The position numbers and the translations under genes were made by a program. From assembly GCA_003555395.1 (NCBI GenBank), contig PWHU01000142.1:1-36013 (forward strand): 36,013 nucleotides of DNA. Reading direction: 5' to 3'. Shown here in pieces: positions 4,250 through 19,079 of the stretch (the stretch's first letter is position 1; every line of letters starts with the position of its first letter). The notes under the pieces were generated by a model. It ran no database searches. It saw only the letters and a list, made by a program, of their open reading frames with translations, and was not told where the DNA came from. This stretch comes from Thermoplasmata archaeon (GTDB lineage: Archaea; Thermoplasmatota; Thermoplasmata; Halarchaeoplasmatales; Halarchaeoplasmataceae).

Positions 4250-5467
4250 ATGAACGAAAAAGAAGCACCTATCGAGAAGTATGTTAGAGTATACGATGAA
4301 GCACAGGATAACGAAGAATGCAAGTGTAATATGGTCGAATCCATGCTGAAAGACGAGATGCTGACGCTGGCAGAGCGGAACGGGATCGAAGTCAGCAGTG
4401 CATCGACGAAGGATGAGATCGCAGAGAAACTTGTGAAGCCGGAAATCTATGAGGATATAGTAGAAAAGAAAGAAGAACGTCCGTCCGTGAAAAGGGAAAC
4501 CGAAGAGCGGAAGAGAAGCGACGAACCACAGGAAGAACCGGAACCCATCGGGATGAACTTTTTAAGCTCTATTTCCGAGATATTCTCCGGGCCGTCCGTT
4601 ACGGGCTATAGAAAGACGAGCGAATTATGGCTCGATGGAATCCAAAGCACCCAAGAGAATCTTAAAAGGGTCACGGACGACCAACTGGACAAATGGAAAA
4701 AGATCGAGAACGAATGGACTGAAAGAGCTTTAGATTTCCAGGAACAGATAGACGTAGTTAGAAAGAATTCAAGCCTTCCGGCAGAGGAAACGAAAGAACT
4801 TTCGGTGATCTGGAGAAATTTCTACAACAAGATGGCCGCCAGGATGACAAGACTCGGAGAACAGACGAGAGAAGTGCAGGAATCATTGAAGGAGATAACG
4901 GAAGAATACGCGGATAGAGCGGAAGAGACCTTGAGCGAAGGCACTGATCCAAGAGATTTCGGTAAACTGTTCGGTTTGTGGTCCGATTTTTCAGAAGACA
5001 TGAGAAAAGAGATGAAGGACTCGATCGAAGACTACGTAGCGGACTACGAAGAGTTCGTTGAAACATGGGACAAATTCTCCAAGAAAACAGACGATCTCTT
5101 GGAGGATCTCCAGGAAGAGCAAGAGGCTCAAGTCGAAGAACTCTATGAACGATGGAACTCAAATTTCGATCAAATAGAGGGGTACGTCCGAGAAGATTAC
5201 CAAAAATACAAAGATTCGTACGAATCATTCCTAAAACAGATAGAAGAACAGAACACTAGGCTGACAGAGATAGCTTTCGAGATGGCAGAAGAGATGGAAG
5301 AGAACTATTCTAACATACTAGAAGGCTACATTGAAACGGTCAACAGGGGATATGAAAATCTATTCACCATGCCCGGCCTTTCCGCCTATAGGACTCGAAA
5401 AGAAAATGATGTGAAAGACTTAAAAGAGAGAGTAAAAAGATTAGAAGAAAAAATGGAGGAGGATTGA
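4250..5467 (+). CDS. phasin/PhaE-like granule-associated protein with SAP/Rho-N-like N-terminal segment
   Basis: First gene of the pha operon. Amphipathic helical body, C-terminal leucine-zipper-like VKDLKERVKRLEEKMEED. N-terminal MLKDEMLTLAERNGIEVSSASTKDEIAEKLV resembles Rho-N/SAP-type helix-extended-loop-helix. Confidence 0.6.
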   Translation: MNEKEAPIEKYVRVYDEAQDNEECKCNMVESMLKDEMLTLAERNGIEVSSASTKDEIAEKLVKPEIYEDIVEKKEERPSVKRETEERKRSDEPQEEPEPIGMNFLSSISEIFSGPSVTGYRKTSELWLDGIQSTQENLKRVTDDQLDKWKKIENEWTERALDFQEQIDVVRKNSSLPAEETKELSVIWRNFYNKMAARMTRLGEQTREVQESLKEITEEYADRAEETLSEGTDPRDFGKLFGLWSDFSEDMRKEMKDSIEDYVADYEEFVETWDKFSKKTDDLLEDLQEEQEAQVEELYERWNSNFDQIEGYVREDYQKYKDSYESFLKQIEEQNTRLTEIAFEMAEEMEENYSNILEGYIETVNRGYENLFTMPGLSAYRTRKENDVKDLKERVKRLEEKMEED

Positions 5468-5471
5468 AAAA

Positions 5472-6299
5472 ATGGCAGATCGAAAGAACATATTCGAATC
5501 TATGAGGTACCTTTCAGACATAGATTACAGTGGGTTCACCAACATGTTGGAACAACAGGAAAGATATATGAAGACTTTCAACCAGATGATGGGGGAGTCC
5601 GCTGATTTTGGAAAGGACGTTAAAGGATTGGTCGAACAGAACAACGAGCAGTACGAGAGACTGAAAAACATATGGGTGGATTTCTCTGACATCTCAGAAG
5701 ATATGATAGAGAAAAATATCGGCGAAGAATATTCAGAGGCTTTCATGGAATACAACGAAAAGATAAGAGATGATTTGAAAACACTCGTAGAATCCAGCCA
5801 AAAGGACGCCGAAGAACTCTATTCGGCTTGGACAGGGATAACGGAAAGTTTGTTCCAGGGAATCAAAGCAGGAACGGGCCCGAATCCGGATGATGTAGTT
5901 GAAGCGGTAGCGGATTTTCAACAGACCGCTCTTCATGTAGCCACGAGAAACATGGAGGATAATCAGGAATCTATGAAGAACTTACGGGAACTACTCGATG
6001 ATCTCGGAGACGACCTGAACAAGCAGATGAAAGAAAACGTTGACACTACTAACGAACGTTACGGGAAATTCATAGAAGATTGGATGAACAGTGTCGATAA
6101 GATGCAGGATACCGTTGAGGAATACATGGAAGAGATGGAAAAAAATTACTTTTCCTCGCTCGAACCGTATTTCGGTAAGAGGTCGGTGATGCCCCTTTTC
6201 CCATGGGTGCCAAACCGGCGGTTGAGAGAATACGAGAGCGAGATAGAAGAGCTAAAGGAGAAAATAGAAGAACTCGAAAAGAAGTTAGAAGATGGGTAA
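5472..6299 (+). CDS. phasin/PhaE-like protein
   Basis: Helical protein with repeated W-x-x-F/D segments, YFGKRSVMPLFPWVP and C-terminal coiled coil EYESEIEELKEKIEELEKKLEDG; starts 4 nt after the preceding gene. Confidence 0.6.
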   Translation: MADRKNIFESMRYLSDIDYSGFTNMLEQQERYMKTFNQMMGESADFGKDVKGLVEQNNEQYERLKNIWVDFSDISEDMIEKNIGEEYSEAFMEYNEKIRDDLKTLVESSQKDAEELYSAWTGITESLFQGIKAGTGPNPDDVVEAVADFQQTALHVATRNMEDNQESMKNLRELLDDLGDDLNKQMKENVDTTNERYGKFIEDWMNSVDKMQDTVEEYMEEMEKNYFSSLEPYFGKRSVMPLFPWVPNRRLREYESEIEELKEKIEELEKKLEDG

Positions 6300-6337: not shown

Positions 6338-7165
6338 ATGGAAGAAGATGTATCATATGAAGATTTAAGAGAACAATTTGTTTCGGCTTGGGAAAAGTTT
6401 TACGAAGAGATGGAAGAATATATGGAAGAGTTAGAGAATCAGAACGCGGAGATCTACGAAGAGATGTACAAGCAGTGGAGAGAATACACGGATAACATAT
6501 CTAGCCAGCAGAAGGCTATCGACGGCTTAGAGTCTTATGCGTCTATGACCGAGATGTTCAATAATTGGGTAAAGATCTCCCAGAACTTTAGAGATATGGT
6601 TGAAGAGAACATAGAAGGAGATCTCCCACCGAATTTCAAAAACATCTATTCGGATTACATGGATAACGTGCGTGACGTTTTGACCGATGCGATAAACCAG
6701 ACCTTGGAAAAACAGCGAAAAGAACAGGAAAATCTTTACGACCTCTGGATAGATGCATGGTCTCAGATGGCCGGTGAAGAGGAAGAGGTACCTCAGATAT
6801 TCAAGATCGTCCAAGAAAATTGGATGGATTCTTATTCCAACCTTTTCAATATTTGGCAGGAGGGGCTTCAAGAAGAGAAAACAGAGGACCTATTCAAAAA
6901 GAGCCAAAACGAGATGATCAAGTCGGCGTCAGAAGCGATGCAGGAACTCATCAGTTCCGAACCCTACGCACAGCTGCAGGGTTCCTATATAGATAACATA
7001 CTCGATACGAAGATCACACAGCAGGAGTTGATGAACACCTATCTTGAGTCCATGAGCTTACCCTCTAGAGAGGATATGTTGAAGATATACGAGTCTATCC
7101 ACGAGTTGACCTCACGGGTCAGAGAAGTCGAGAGGAGATTGGACGATCTACCTATAGAAGAATGA
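6338..7165 (+). CDS. phaE: PHA synthase subunit PhaE
   Basis: Directly upstream of phaC; C-terminal NTYLESMSLPSREDMLKIYESIHELTSRVREVERRLDDL resembles the PhaE C-terminal signature (LxLPxRxEhxxhxxxhhELxxxVRxLxRxL). Confidence 0.75.
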   Translation: MEEDVSYEDLREQFVSAWEKFYEEMEEYMEELENQNAEIYEEMYKQWREYTDNISSQQKAIDGLESYASMTEMFNNWVKISQNFRDMVEENIEGDLPPNFKNIYSDYMDNVRDVLTDAINQTLEKQRKEQENLYDLWIDAWSQMAGEEEEVPQIFKIVQENWMDSYSNLFNIWQEGLQEEKTEDLFKKSQNEMIKSASEAMQELISSEPYAQLQGSYIDNILDTKITQQELMNTYLESMSLPSREDMLKIYESIHELTSRVREVERRLDDLPIEE

Positions 7166-7184: not shown

Positions 7185-8456
7185 ATGAAAGATATTCCAA
7201 AAGAACTCGGAGATGTTTCTACCTTGACAAAGGCTCAAAATGATTTTATGAATGATCTTGTTGAGCACGCTCTCGATATAGACAGAGCGGCTAAGCTTTT
7301 ACGATCGATGCCCCAAGTTGAGGTGGGACAAACTCCTTCCGAGGTAATATGGGAAAAGGACATAGCGAGACTGCTTCACTACAAATGTGAAGGCGATTTG
7401 GAAGATAGACCACCGATCCTGCTGGTGTACGCTTTGATCAACGAACCATATATCTTGGATCTTCAACCGGGCAGATCGGTAGTCGAAACTTTGTTAGATT
7501 ACGGGCTGGACGTATACATGATAGACTGGAAAAAGCCGGACAAGCGCCACCAGTTTGAAACGTTAGACGATTATGTGAATTATTTCATCGATGTCTGCGT
7601 AGATAAAGTTAGAAAATATCGGGATAAAGAATCGATCAATATTTTGGGTTACTGCATGGGAGGCACCTTGTCTGCCATGTACGCAGCTCTTCACTCGGAA
7701 AAAGTCCGCACGCTCTCGCTCATGGCCGCCGGACTCGACTTTGAGAAAGATACGGGAAATCTCAAGCTGTGGGCCGACCATGATTTTTTCCACCCGGAAA
7801 AAGTGACGGAAGCATTCGGGAACTGTCCCGCTGAATTCCTTGACGGTGCTTATCTATTTTTGTCACCTGTAAACAACACGGTGGGTAAACTTTTGAATTT
7901 AGCGGAAAACGTTGAAAACGAAGAATTCGTCGAGATGTTCTTTAGGATGGAAAAATGGATACATGACGGAAAAGACGTTCCGGGTAAAACCTTCTCCAAG
8001 TTCGTGAAAGACCTCTACCAGGAGAACAAATTGGTTAAGAACGAACTCAAAATCGGCGGAAAGAGAGTGGACCTGAAAAACATAGATATGCCAGTACTCC
8101 TTTTGATGGGAGAATACGATACACTAGTTCCACCAGAAAGTAGCGAATCCTTCATCGAAGCTATAGCAAGCGACGATACAGAGATAATGAAAGAATCGGT
8201 AGGACACATAGGTCTCTCAGTCAGTTCTAAAGTACATCCTGGTCTTTGGGGAAAAGTGGCAGAATGGATCAAAGAAAGGGACGAGAAACCCCTAACATCG
8301 ATCAACGGTATCGGAGAAAAATCAGCTAAGAAGCTGAAAGAGGCTTCGGTCAAGAGTGTTAGCGATCTTTCTATATCCGATGCTGAGGAACTTTCCGAAA
8401 AAACGGGGATATCTCAAAAAAGAATCCAAAAGTGGAAGGACAGGATAGAAAAATAA
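7185..8456 (+). CDS. phaC: class III poly(3-hydroxyalkanoate) synthase PhaC with C-terminal HhH extension
   Basis: LGYCMGGTLSAMYA lipase-like box (Cys nucleophile), MGEYDTLVPPESSE (Asp), VGHIGLSVSSKVHPGLWGKVAEWI (His). C-terminal SINGIGEKSAKKLKEASVKSVSDLSISDAEELSEKTGISQKRIQKWKDRIEK is HhH-like. Confidence 0.92.
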   Translation: MKDIPKELGDVSTLTKAQNDFMNDLVEHALDIDRAAKLLRSMPQVEVGQTPSEVIWEKDIARLLHYKCEGDLEDRPPILLVYALINEPYILDLQPGRSVVETLLDYGLDVYMIDWKKPDKRHQFETLDDYVNYFIDVCVDKVRKYRDKESINILGYCMGGTLSAMYAALHSEKVRTLSLMAAGLDFEKDTGNLKLWADHDFFHPEKVTEAFGNCPAEFLDGAYLFLSPVNNTVGKLLNLAENVENEEFVEMFFRMEKWIHDGKDVPGKTFSKFVKDLYQENKLVKNELKIGGKRVDLKNIDMPVLLLMGEYDTLVPPESSESFIEAIASDDTEIMKESVGHIGLSVSSKVHPGLWGKVAEWIKERDEKPLTSINGIGEKSAKKLKEASVKSVSDLSISDAEELSEKTGISQKRIQKWKDRIEK

Positions 8457-8472: not shown

Positions 8473-9249
8473 ATGATAAAAGCAAACCAAAAAGAAAGCG
8501 AACCCTACTCTCTCGAAGGAAAAAAAGCACTGATCACAGGTGCTTCTAGGGGGATCGGCGAACAGATAGCTCTTACCCTCGCAGATCATGGGGCTGAAGT
8601 GGTGGTAAATTATAATACTAGTCATGATAAAGCCAGCGAAACCGCTACTACGGTCGAACTGGAAGGCGAAAACAGCTGGATATATCCGGCAGATATAAGT
8701 GATCATGAGGAAGTAAAACAGATGAAGGAACATCTAAAAGAGAATTTCGGAGAGATCGATATCCTTGTGAACAACGCCGGTATAAACAGAGATAAATTTT
8801 TCGCTAAGATGAAAAAAGAAGATTGGGACAAAGTTATATCAGTGAATCTCGACGGCGTATTTAACTGTACCAAAACTTTTCTTGACGACATACGTGAATC
8901 GGAGCAGGGGAGGATAATAAACATTTCTTCGGTGGTTGGCCAAAAAGGAAATATCGGCCAGGTCAATTACGCTTCTTCTAAAGCAGGAATAATAGGTTTT
9001 ACGAAGGCTTTAGCTCAAGAGCTAGTCAGAGATGACGTTACAGTCAACGCGGTAGCTCCTGGGTTTATAGCTACAGAGATGGTGAAAAACATCCCTGAAA
9101 AGGTGCAGAAAAATATCAAAAGTCAGATACCTATGAACCGTTTCGGTGAACCGGAGGAAGTTGCAGAAGTCGTCGCCTTTTTAGCATCTGCAAAATCCTC
9201 TTATATGACAGGAACAGTTATAGAAGTAAACGGAGGTTATTACCTATAA
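8473..9249 (+). CDS. acetoacetyl-CoA / 3-oxoacyl-ACP reductase (SDR; PhaB/FabG-like)
   Basis: ALITGASRGIGEQIA cofactor motif, LVNNAGINRDKFFAKM, SSVVGQKGNIGQVNYASSKAG catalytic S-Y-K; SD GGAGGTGATC. Confidence 0.9.
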   Translation: MIKANQKESEPYSLEGKKALITGASRGIGEQIALTLADHGAEVVVNYNTSHDKASETATTVELEGENSWIYPADISDHEEVKQMKEHLKENFGEIDILVNNAGINRDKFFAKMKKEDWDKVISVNLDGVFNCTKTFLDDIRESEQGRIINISSVVGQKGNIGQVNYASSKAGIIGFTKALAQELVRDDVTVNAVAPGFIATEMVKNIPEKVQKNIKSQIPMNRFGEPEEVAEVVAFLASAKSSYMTGTVIEVNGGYYL

Positions 9250-9274: not shown

Positions 9275-10078
9275 ATGACTGAAGAGAAAAATTTCTTTGA
9301 CGAGATCGAAGGTTTAGATACAACCTGTAGAAGATTGAGTGGTTTAAGCGCATTGGTCACTGGCTGCGCCCAAGGCATAGGTAGAAGGATCGCCCTAGAA
9401 CTTGCAAAAGAAGGGGCAGATATAGTCATAAACGATCTGAGTTCACAAAAAGAAAAGGCCAACAAGGTTGCCCAATACATCGAGAGCCATCTCGACAGAG
9501 AGGCATGGATGGTCGAAGCCGATGTTTCCGACATCGAAGATGTAAAACGTGCTAAAACCCAAGTGGAAGAAAATTTTGGGAAGATAGATATACTAGTGAA
9601 CAACGCCGGGATCAACAGGGACAACTTCTTCACCAAGATGGAAAAGAAAGACTGGGACCAAGTTTTATCGGTAAATCTTGACAGCGTTTTCAACTGTACG
9701 CACACATTTTTAGATCACATACAGGATTCAGCTCAGGGTCGCGTCATCAGTCTATCTTCAGTGGTAGGAGAAAGAGGTAATATAGGGCAGGTGAATTATG
9801 CCTCCTCTAAAGCGGGGATCATCGGTTTTACGAAAGCTTTAGCTCAAGAATTGGTGAGAGACGACGTGACGGTAAATGCGGTAGCTCCTGGATTTATAGC
9901 TACTAAGATGGTACTTGATATGCCGGAAAAGGTGAAGGATAAGATCAAAAAACAGATCCCTATGGCGCGCTTTGGAAAGCCAAAGGAAGTAGCTCGGACA
10001 GTTACATTTTTAGCCTCTAAAGACGCTTCCTACATAACAGGGGAAGTGATCCGAATGAACGGCGGCTTCTACCTTTAA
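9275..10078 (+). CDS. second SDR reductase (PhaB/FabG-like) with about 25-aa N-terminal extension
   Basis: ALVTGCAQGIGRRIA, LVNNAGINRDNFFTKM, SSVVGERGNIGQVNYASSKAG; tandem paralog of the preceding gene. Confidence 0.9.
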   Translation: MTEEKNFFDEIEGLDTTCRRLSGLSALVTGCAQGIGRRIALELAKEGADIVINDLSSQKEKANKVAQYIESHLDREAWMVEADVSDIEDVKRAKTQVEENFGKIDILVNNAGINRDNFFTKMEKKDWDQVLSVNLDSVFNCTHTFLDHIQDSAQGRVISLSSVVGERGNIGQVNYASSKAGIIGFTKALAQELVRDDVTVNAVAPGFIATKMVLDMPEKVKDKIKKQIPMARFGKPKEVARTVTFLASKDASYITGEVIRMNGGFYL

Positions 10079-16505: not shown

Positions 16506-19079
16506 CTATTCGTCGGCTTTTTTCTTTTCGGGATGGAAACTTTCTATAACGTTTACGTATTCTTCAACCTGTTCCATCGAAAGGCCTGTAAAATTCGATA
16601 TCTCCTCTCTAGAGTAACCGTCTTCCATCAAGTGCTGGACTCTGAGGGGATCTTTTATCTTTTCTCTTTCGATCTCCTCTCTTTTCTTCTTCAACGCTTC
16701 TTCTTTCTTTTTAAGAGATTGGTTTCTCTTTTTGGCTTTTTCTATTTTTGCAGAGAGTTCATCTTCCTTTTCCTTTAATTCATCGTTTCTCTGCTTCAAC
16801 TTTTCTCTACGGGAGGATACTTCCTCTCTTTTCTCTTTTAGATTACTCCTTAGCTCATCTATCTCTTCAGCTTTCTCATCTAATTTCTTTTCTCTCTCAT
16901 CGAGTTGGACTTTCCTTTCATCGAACCTTTCTTTCTTCTTATCAAGCTCTTTTTCAAACTCCTTGATATCCTGTTCTCTCTGTTTTAGTTCCTTCTTTTC
17001 CTCTTCAATCGACCCCCACTCCTTCTCCAACCTCGCTTTACTCTCTTCGATCTTATTCCTCTCTTCTTTTACCTCATCCAGCTTCTGTTCAGCATCTTCC
17101 CTTTCCTCTTTTATCTGTTCGAATTTCGTTTCCACATAGTTCTCCCTTCCTTTTAGATCGTTTTCTAGGTCATTTAATTCCTCAGCCTTCTCATCGAGTT
17201 CTTTTTCTCGTTGATCTAAAAAGACTTGTTTTTTATTTATTTTTTCTTCATTTTTTAATATCTCTTGTTCCCTCTGGTCAAGTTCCTCTTTGGTTTCTTG
17301 AAGTTCTTCATCTAATCCTTCCAGTTCTGACCTTTTCTCGACTATCATCCTTTCCTTCTTTCCGAGTTCGTCTTTCAACTCGCTCAGTTCAGCCTCTTTC
17401 CTATCTAATTCTTTACCTTTTTCCTCTATATTCTCTCTAGCCTTTTTGAGGTCTTCTAACTTTCTTTCCATCTCTTCCTCTTTTTTTTCTAATTTTTCTT
17501 CAAGTTCGTCTTCGCGTTCTTCCAATTCAACCTCTTTATCTAAAAGGAATTCCTCCTTCTCCTGAAGCCTCTCTTCCTCTTTTTTAATCTCACTTTCTTT
17601 GTTTCTTAATCCTCTATCCTTTTCCTGCATCTTTTTTATCTTATCTCGTAGTTCTTGATATTGGCTAGTCAATTTCTCTTCGAATCTTTTGAGCTCTTCT
17701 TCCTTCTTTTCTAACCTCTCTTCCTTTTCTTCCAAAGTTTCTTCCTTTTTTTCCTCAGCTGTTATGGCACCGGGTGGAGGTGGAATAGAAACTTCTTTAT
17801 CATGCTCTTTTTCTACAGCTTCTGTTGTCTCATGTTCAACTTTTCTTGGAGGACGATATCGTGGGCCACCTGGACCTGGGGCTGGCTTGACAACATCTGA
17901 TTCCATACCATCAAAGTTTTCTTTAGGGGTCTTAGTTTTCTCCAAAGAATTGTTCAGTTCTTGAGGTAAAGAGTCTCCTTCATCTTCATCTCCCTCAGCT
18001 CTATCAACGAGATCGGGAGGGGGGGGGGGAAATTCTTCAGAATGCTCTTTTTTATCTTTTTTTATGTCTTTTTTTTCAATATCTTTCTCTAGATATTCTT
18101 CCACCGTCTCTAGTATTATCTCAGCTTGTAGAGGGCCTATATCTTCTATTTCCTGTAGAACTTCCTTTGAAGCATTCTCTATATCTTCCAAGGCGTGGTA
18201 GCCATTATCATAAAGTTTTTCAGCGATGGAGTCAGGTAAACCATCCACCTCTTTCAATTTGTTGACTACTTCTTCATCTACTTCTTCATCTACTTTCATA
18301 TCCTCCTTATTCTCTTCTTTTCTATCTACAAAGTCGGGAGGAGGTGGTGGAAACTCTTCAGAAGCCTCTTCCTTTTCTGCTGGGGGCGATTCATCTAAAG
18401 AACTGTTGTTATCCTCGCTCATTTCTTCTTCATGTACGGCTTCTGGCGGAGGTGGAATTGGCTCAGTTCCCGAATCTGAAGTTCCCTCCTCTTCGATCAT
18501 CTCTTCATCACCTTCAGTCGGAGGCTGGGGTATGTTTTCGTGTTCCTCAGAGGATCTTTCAACGGCTTCAGTAGAGGATATATCTTCTTCATCAAATTCT
18601 TGCTCAGCTTCTGCTGTCTTTTCTTCTTCTACTCTAGTCTTTTCTTCTAATCCATCTTCAAGCTTATCTTCAGCTAACTCCTTTAGAGCGCTAACTTTTT
18701 TGGATGTGACATTTCTGATCTCTTCAAGTTGGGATAGCTCGGCCTCATCAATATCTTTAAAATTTTTGAAACCATGATCATATATTTTTTCAGCAGTGCT
18801 CTGGCCTATACCGTTTATGGTTTTTAAATCACCTAAAAAATCCTCTTTTGAGACCTCTTCCCCGTAATCCTCATGATCTTCAAGATCATGTAGATTCTCT
18901 CCCGACGTTTGATCCGGTGTAAAAGTAACATCTTCCTCGCCGATACCTTCCATAGTATACCCACAAGATTCACAATGTGCGGAAAAATCAGCTCCTACCT
19001 CTAAAGTTTCATTTCCGCAGTTTGGGCATTTTCTTTCTGACGGCACAGTTTCGGTTGGGTCGGGAGTATCGCGGCTCAT
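16506..19079 (-). CDS. zinc-ribbon / 2x HhH / Pro-rich / long coiled-coil / C-terminal HTH-like protein
   Basis: CPNCGNETLEVGADFSAHCESCG; KTINGIGQSTAEKIYDHGFKNFKDIDEAELSQLEEI; EVDGLPDSIAEKLYDNGYHALEDIENASKEVLQEIEDIGPLQAEIIL; EEFPPPPPD(F/L)VDR twice; about 350-aa heptad coiled coil; C-terminal DPLRVQHLMEDGYSREEISNFTGLSMEQVEEYV. Confidence 0.85.
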   Translation of the reverse strand: MSRDTPDPTETVPSERKCPNCGNETLEVGADFSAHCESCGYTMEGIGEEDVTFTPDQTSGENLHDLEDHEDYGEEVSKEDFLGDLKTINGIGQSTAEKIYDHGFKNFKDIDEAELSQLEEIRNVTSKKVSALKELAEDKLEDGLEEKTRVEEEKTAEAEQEFDEEDISSTEAVERSSEEHENIPQPPTEGDEEMIEEEGTSDSGTEPIPPPPEAVHEEEMSEDNNSSLDESPPAEKEEASEEFPPPPPDFVDRKEENKEDMKVDEEVDEEVVNKLKEVDGLPDSIAEKLYDNGYHALEDIENASKEVLQEIEDIGPLQAEIILETVEEYLEKDIEKKDIKKDKKEHSEEFPPPPPDLVDRAEGDEDEGDSLPQELNNSLEKTKTPKENFDGMESDVVKPAPGPGGPRYRPPRKVEHETTEAVEKEHDKEVSIPPPPGAITAEEKKEETLEEKEERLEKKEEELKRFEEKLTSQYQELRDKIKKMQEKDRGLRNKESEIKKEEERLQEKEEFLLDKEVELEEREDELEEKLEKKEEEMERKLEDLKKARENIEEKGKELDRKEAELSELKDELGKKERMIVEKRSELEGLDEELQETKEELDQREQEILKNEEKINKKQVFLDQREKELDEKAEELNDLENDLKGRENYVETKFEQIKEEREDAEQKLDEVKEERNKIEESKARLEKEWGSIEEEKKELKQREQDIKEFEKELDKKKERFDERKVQLDEREKKLDEKAEEIDELRSNLKEKREEVSSRREKLKQRNDELKEKEDELSAKIEKAKKRNQSLKKKEEALKKKREEIEREKIKDPLRVQHLMEDGYSREEISNFTGLSMEQVEEYVNVIESFHPEKKKADE

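Follow-up and report, generated by a model that had tools for sequence, protein, structure and literature searches.

The analyzed window, the 36,013-nt contig C179, belongs to a Thermoplasmata MAG (G000; 2.0 Mb, 94% complete, 193 contigs) whose nearest named relatives are the Thermoplasmata MAG B1Sed10_20 and Candidatus Haladaptatiplasma halalkaliphilum. It contains a pha operon with all genes on the forward strand, in the order of two phasin-like genes, phaE, phaC, and two SDR genes. The operon is flanked by ordinary archaeal genes, including those for an RNase H-fold protein with an HHH_5 domain, NurA, HerA, TruB, SecY, and ribosomal protein L3. The entire operon order was found at another locus (L020), and the order from phaE through the second SDR gene was also found at locus L021.

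The first gene (4250–5467, +) encodes a phasin-like coiled-coil protein of 405 aa with a conserved N-terminal helical domain (about residues 10–75), which was modelled with a pLDDT of about 90. This domain (4250–4489) recurs in a second coiled-coil protein of the same architecture, 409 aa in length, on contig C151 of the source genome (L104). A SAP/HeH-like nucleic-acid domain was considered for this N-terminus and dropped, as there was no significant Pfam match and a fold search against the PDB gave no match at E ≤ 0.001. The second gene (5472–6299, +) encodes a phasin-like helical/coiled-coil protein of 275 aa, a probable granule protein whose match to Phasin_2 (E 1.4e-4) was below the gathering score. 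The phaE gene (6338–7165, +) encodes a PhaE-type synthase accessory subunit of 275 aa, matching PF09712 over the gathering score (E 1.8e-11) and TIGR01834 below the cut-off (E 2.2e-13). Downstream of phaC, the two FabG/PhaB-type reductases are encoded in tandem. The first SDR (8473–9249, +), a 3-oxoacyl reductase that is the probable supplier of (R)-3-hydroxyacyl-CoA, matched TIGR01830 and TIGR01829 over their cut-offs, and the second (9275–10078, +) matched TIGR01830 over the cut-off.

The phaC gene (7185–8456, +) is a single open frame of 423 aa with no internal stops, and encodes a class III PHA synthase catalytic subunit with a C-terminal HhH fusion. Residues 17–365 matched TIGR01836 with an E-value of 1.2e-114, scoring 383 bits where the cut-off is 365.3. 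The lipase-like box G-x-C-x-G-G reads GYCMGG and includes C157, which together with D312 and H341 forms a Cys-Asp-His triad that was invariant in an alignment of eight archaeal PhaCs. The AlphaFold model of the whole protein matched the PhaC crystal structures from Aeromonas, Cupriavidus, and Chromobacterium. The full-length TIGR01836 match, the Cys box and triad, and the adjoining phaE place the protein in class III, and the gene encodes a functional-looking archaeal synthase of this class.

The C-terminal HhH module of PhaC

The TIGR01836 core match stops at residue 365 and is followed almost directly, with about 3–8 residues between, by a C-terminal HHH_5 domain (residues 369–422; 8289–8450, +). 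The match to HHH_5 (PF14520) had an E-value of 3.5e-11 and, at 43.9 bits, lay well over the gathering score of 27, and the isolated 53-aa tail matched the same model with an E-value of 1.5e-11, which is far beyond chance. An HhH module at this end had been proposed in the initial annotation, and the tail quoted there is present letter for letter. Its proposed start at 8285 was right to a codon or two, but 8285 ends a codon and the domain proper begins at ~8289. The annotation had also assigned the module to the RadA/topoisomerase type, which agrees with the weaker matches of the isolated tail to RAD51D_N (8.8e-7) and RadA (1.5e-6) and to DNA Pol IV and topoisomerase I models. The PhaC tail thus belongs to the same domain family as the N-terminal HhH of RadA/Rad51 and RAD51D; unlike in these proteins, it comes without an ATPase core and sits on an alpha/beta-hydrolase polymerase instead.

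In the AlphaFold model, which was built from an 8-sequence alignment, the tail helices span residues 378–386, 392–397, 400–407, and 411–422 with pLDDT values of about 85–93. The tail is predicted with confidence to be a compact helical bundle of short helices. The module has a net charge of +3 and the PhaC core has a net charge of –22. A Trp in the last helix was invariant in 13 of 13 PhaC HhH modules.

The source genome has 29 HHH_5 matches, 26 of them over the cut-off. As read from the sequences, the carriers include a small GTPase, a bactofilin-like protein, and surface proteins that have Ig- or InlB-like repeats and span the membrane once. At loci L083–L102 (for example L083, L085, L086, L087, L089, L090, L095, and L096) the HHH_5 domain is often a C-terminal tail. 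These tails possibly represent a lineage-wide cytoplasmic docking tag, which would be more unusual than the PhaC tail itself. Within the window, an 857-aa protein (16506–19079, –) combines two HHH_5 domains with a match to the RNase Y N-terminus that is weak and under the cut-off.

Distribution among Thermoplasmatota and haloarchaea

Among the Thermoplasmatota, the PhaC–HhH fusion was found in the source genome, in G003 (68% identity), in G011 (60%), and in G449, a member of a different family (46% in local alignment). The phaE–phaC–SDR–SDR order is common to the source and the two relatives at 68% and 60% identity. In G003, the nearest relative, the first Gly of hairpin 1 is lost, so that the motif reads WIG for GIG. 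The remaining Thermoplasmatota PhaCs that we found (about 16 genomes) have no HhH and end soon after the core. Several of these HhH-less PhaCs carry Lys-rich C-terminal tails with net charges of +6 to +14 in 13–28 residues (L022, L023, and L024, plus G438 and G356 at L072 and L033). The idea that HhH replaces the Lys-rich tails in halophiles was considered and found unsupported. The HhH carriers in the panel do have acidic PhaC cores, but the acidity of neighbouring ORFs (4–29 per genome) failed to separate HhH from non-HhH genomes: by this measure G449, with HhH, is not acidic, and G028 and G457 are acidic without HhH.

Nine of the 12 haloarchaeal plasmid loci examined have a PhaC ending in HhH, and all six haloarchaeal PhaC tails scanned with Pfam were over the HHH_5 cut-off. 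The annotation had implied that the extension was new and had called for a survey of archaeal PhaC C-termini; with these counts, the novelty does not stand. The C-terminal extension is common in haloarchaeal PhaCs, and a 2025 study described PhaC of Haloferax mediterranei as ending in an HhH domain, drew the comparison with PhaH, a phasin that binds DNA through its HhH, and put forward the nucleoid idea (PMC12028471). The annotation was correct that canonical bacterial class III PhaCs end at the core, as far as the examples examined from Priestia and Rhizobium show, neither of which has an HhH tail. Phage records gave only bacterial-type PhaC matches, none with an HhH tail.

The HhH of PhaC is therefore real and well conserved, but already described for haloarchaea. 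What is added here is its occurrence in Thermoplasmata, for which no description was found in the literature searched, together with a PhaC-specific HhH signature and alternative Lys-rich tails. A published haloarchaeal feature is thus extended to another archaeal phylum, and the gain is modest. With a polymerase-borne HhH common to haloarchaea and Thermoplasmata, the positioning and inheritance of storage granules in archaea become testable.

Relation to the haloarchaeal module

The window PhaC shares with haloarchaeal PhaC/PhaC3 (such as that of Haloferax mediterranei) the class III core and a C-terminal HHH_5 domain with the last-helix Trp. Haloarchaeal PhaCs mostly have a linker, often acidic, before the HhH, and PhaC3-like proteins have an extra domain of ~100 residues, whereas the window PhaC has neither. 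The haloarchaeal HhH modules are net acidic, mostly read GIGP-x-Y, and are without the hairpin Lys of the window module. The 275-aa PhaE of the window is longer than the small haloarchaeal PhaE (about 20 kDa), and the operon order (phasin–phasin–phaE–phaC–SDR–SDR) differs from the haloarchaeal maoC–phaR–phaP–phaE–phaC.

A profile made from haloarchaeal PhaC tails alone was compared across 20 HHH_5 loci of the source genome. The window tail scored 36.6 bits, while the next-best HHH_5 module among these loci scored 20.7 bits. The last-helix Trp was missing from the listed HHH_5 modules elsewhere in this genome. With this difference in score and the invariant Trp, the window tail is probably a PhaC-specific HhH module shared with haloarchaea rather than a local recruit, and recruitment from the genome's own HHH_5 pool (at most 20.7 bits) is disfavoured.

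In the tree of PhaC cores, the clade with the window PhaC was sister to the haloarchaeal clade and not inside it, with weak support for the sister relation (85/83), and the G449 core grouped among other Thermoplasmata. A single origin of HhH among PhaCs was not supported, as the core tree called for four changes of the HhH label, at least three of them forced. The deep forks are weak, and the distribution would be compatible with transfer, loss, and separate gain alike.

Possible functions of the HhH module

The analysis shows the fusion, how far it is conserved, how the module relates to that of haloarchaea, and which fold it is predicted to have. As the most likely mechanism we infer that the HhH may tie PHA granules to chromosomal DNA, and we give this reading a probability of about 45%. 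The nascent polymer and PhaE would keep the PhaC core at the granule surface, with the HhH module facing outward and making weak, sequence-independent contact with chromosomal DNA. Young granules would form on the nucleoid and be shared out with it, and the module would do the job of the separate bacterial proteins PhaH, PhaM, and PhaF.

Several observations make such a tether plausible: an HHH_5 domain on a TIGR01836 core, a confidently predicted fold, conservation in G003, G011, G449, and nine of 12 haloarchaeal PhaCs, the score against the haloarchaeal tail profile, and the Trp shared by all 13 PhaC modules. It is also favoured by the precedent of Caulobacter PhaH, which links granules to the nucleoid, as one of its ends binds granules and its HhH domain binds DNA non-specifically (reviewed in PMC13052382), and by the published comparison with H. 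mediterranei PhaC (PMC12028471). PhaH of Caulobacter crescentus is likewise a PHA-granule protein with an HhH domain, but it is a phasin of its own that binds granules N-terminally and has the HhH at its C-terminus, while here the HhH is on the synthase. PhaM of Cupriavidus necator and PhaF of Pseudomonas putida bind granules and DNA via histone-like ends (PMC13052382). They have only the proposed role of granule–nucleoid tether in common with the PhaC HhH; their DNA-binding ends are Lys-rich and on separate proteins, and are closer to the Lys-rich PhaC tails at L022, L023, and L024. That the tails of HhH-less PhaCs recall these ends also favours the tether. In a halotolerant DNase, DNA binding at high salt can be supported by HhH domains (PMC4486849).

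Other observations speak against the tether. The haloarchaeal modules are acidic and lack the hairpin Lys, and G003 has WIG for GIG. The step from HhH to DNA binding is further weakened by the HHH_5 domains on a GTPase, a cytoskeleton-like (bactofilin-like) protein, and surface proteins anchored in the membrane, for which DNA binding is not obvious. That the module is basic (+3) and the core acidic (–22) would favour DNA contact; however, net charge proved not diagnostic and gives no support either way, because the HhH modules of the genome's own DNA enzymes (Hef/XPF-like, Hel308-like) are acidic.

A role in synthase assembly or activity is only slightly less probable than the tether. The HhH would then be a protein–protein module that docks PhaC to PhaE, another PhaC, or phasins, with no DNA contact, for assembly, stability, or full activity at high salt. 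Such a role is consistent with the HHH_5 domains on many non-DNA proteins of the source genome and with the last-helix Trp, which is invariant in PhaC modules and missing from the listed modules elsewhere in the genome. In haloarchaea, the synthase reportedly requires its longer C-terminus for full activity, and truncation lowers PHA accumulation (PMC7137286; PMC2939530), but the truncations also took away the long linker, and grafting the PhaC3 C-terminus onto PhaC2 gave no activity (PMC2939530). In addition, the HhH is absent from most Thermoplasmatota PhaCs, and wherever the surroundings of these PhaCs were read, PhaE-like neighbours were present, so that pairing with PhaE does not require the HhH.

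It is improbable that the tail is a promiscuous lineage appendage from the genomic HHH_5 pool with little or no function. Many of the 26 modules over the cut-off are indeed at the C-termini of unrelated proteins, but none of the listed modules elsewhere in the genome is as close to the PhaC tail as the haloarchaeal PhaC tails are. The tail also persists, with the Trp invariant, across three species with identities as low as 60% and in G449, which belongs to another family; neutral tails would decay. The source MAG is split into 193 contigs, but an artefact of assembly or gene calling can be practically dismissed, since the fusion lies in one open frame and three other genomes as well as finished haloarchaeal plasmids independently carry the same in-frame fusion.

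A broader and rather doubtful reading is that the archaeal polymerase itself would be the nucleoid tether, with HhH and Lys-rich DNA-contacting ends being interchangeable and no dedicated PhaM, PhaF, or PhaH. Granule birth and chromosome attachment would then be one step in archaea.

Genomic context of haloarchaeal phaC genes

In Salinirubellus, a separate small gene annotated as a helix-hairpin-helix domain-containing protein (L057:4575–4823) overlaps the 3' end of phaC, and this phaC also ends in HhH. A maoC–phaC–SHOCT block, in which PhaC has the HhH, is common to haloarchaeal plasmids of different genera (L058, L059, L063, and L065). An integrase gene adjoins the block in three of the four plasmids and ParA in two of the four, which suggests that the block is a mobile PHA module.
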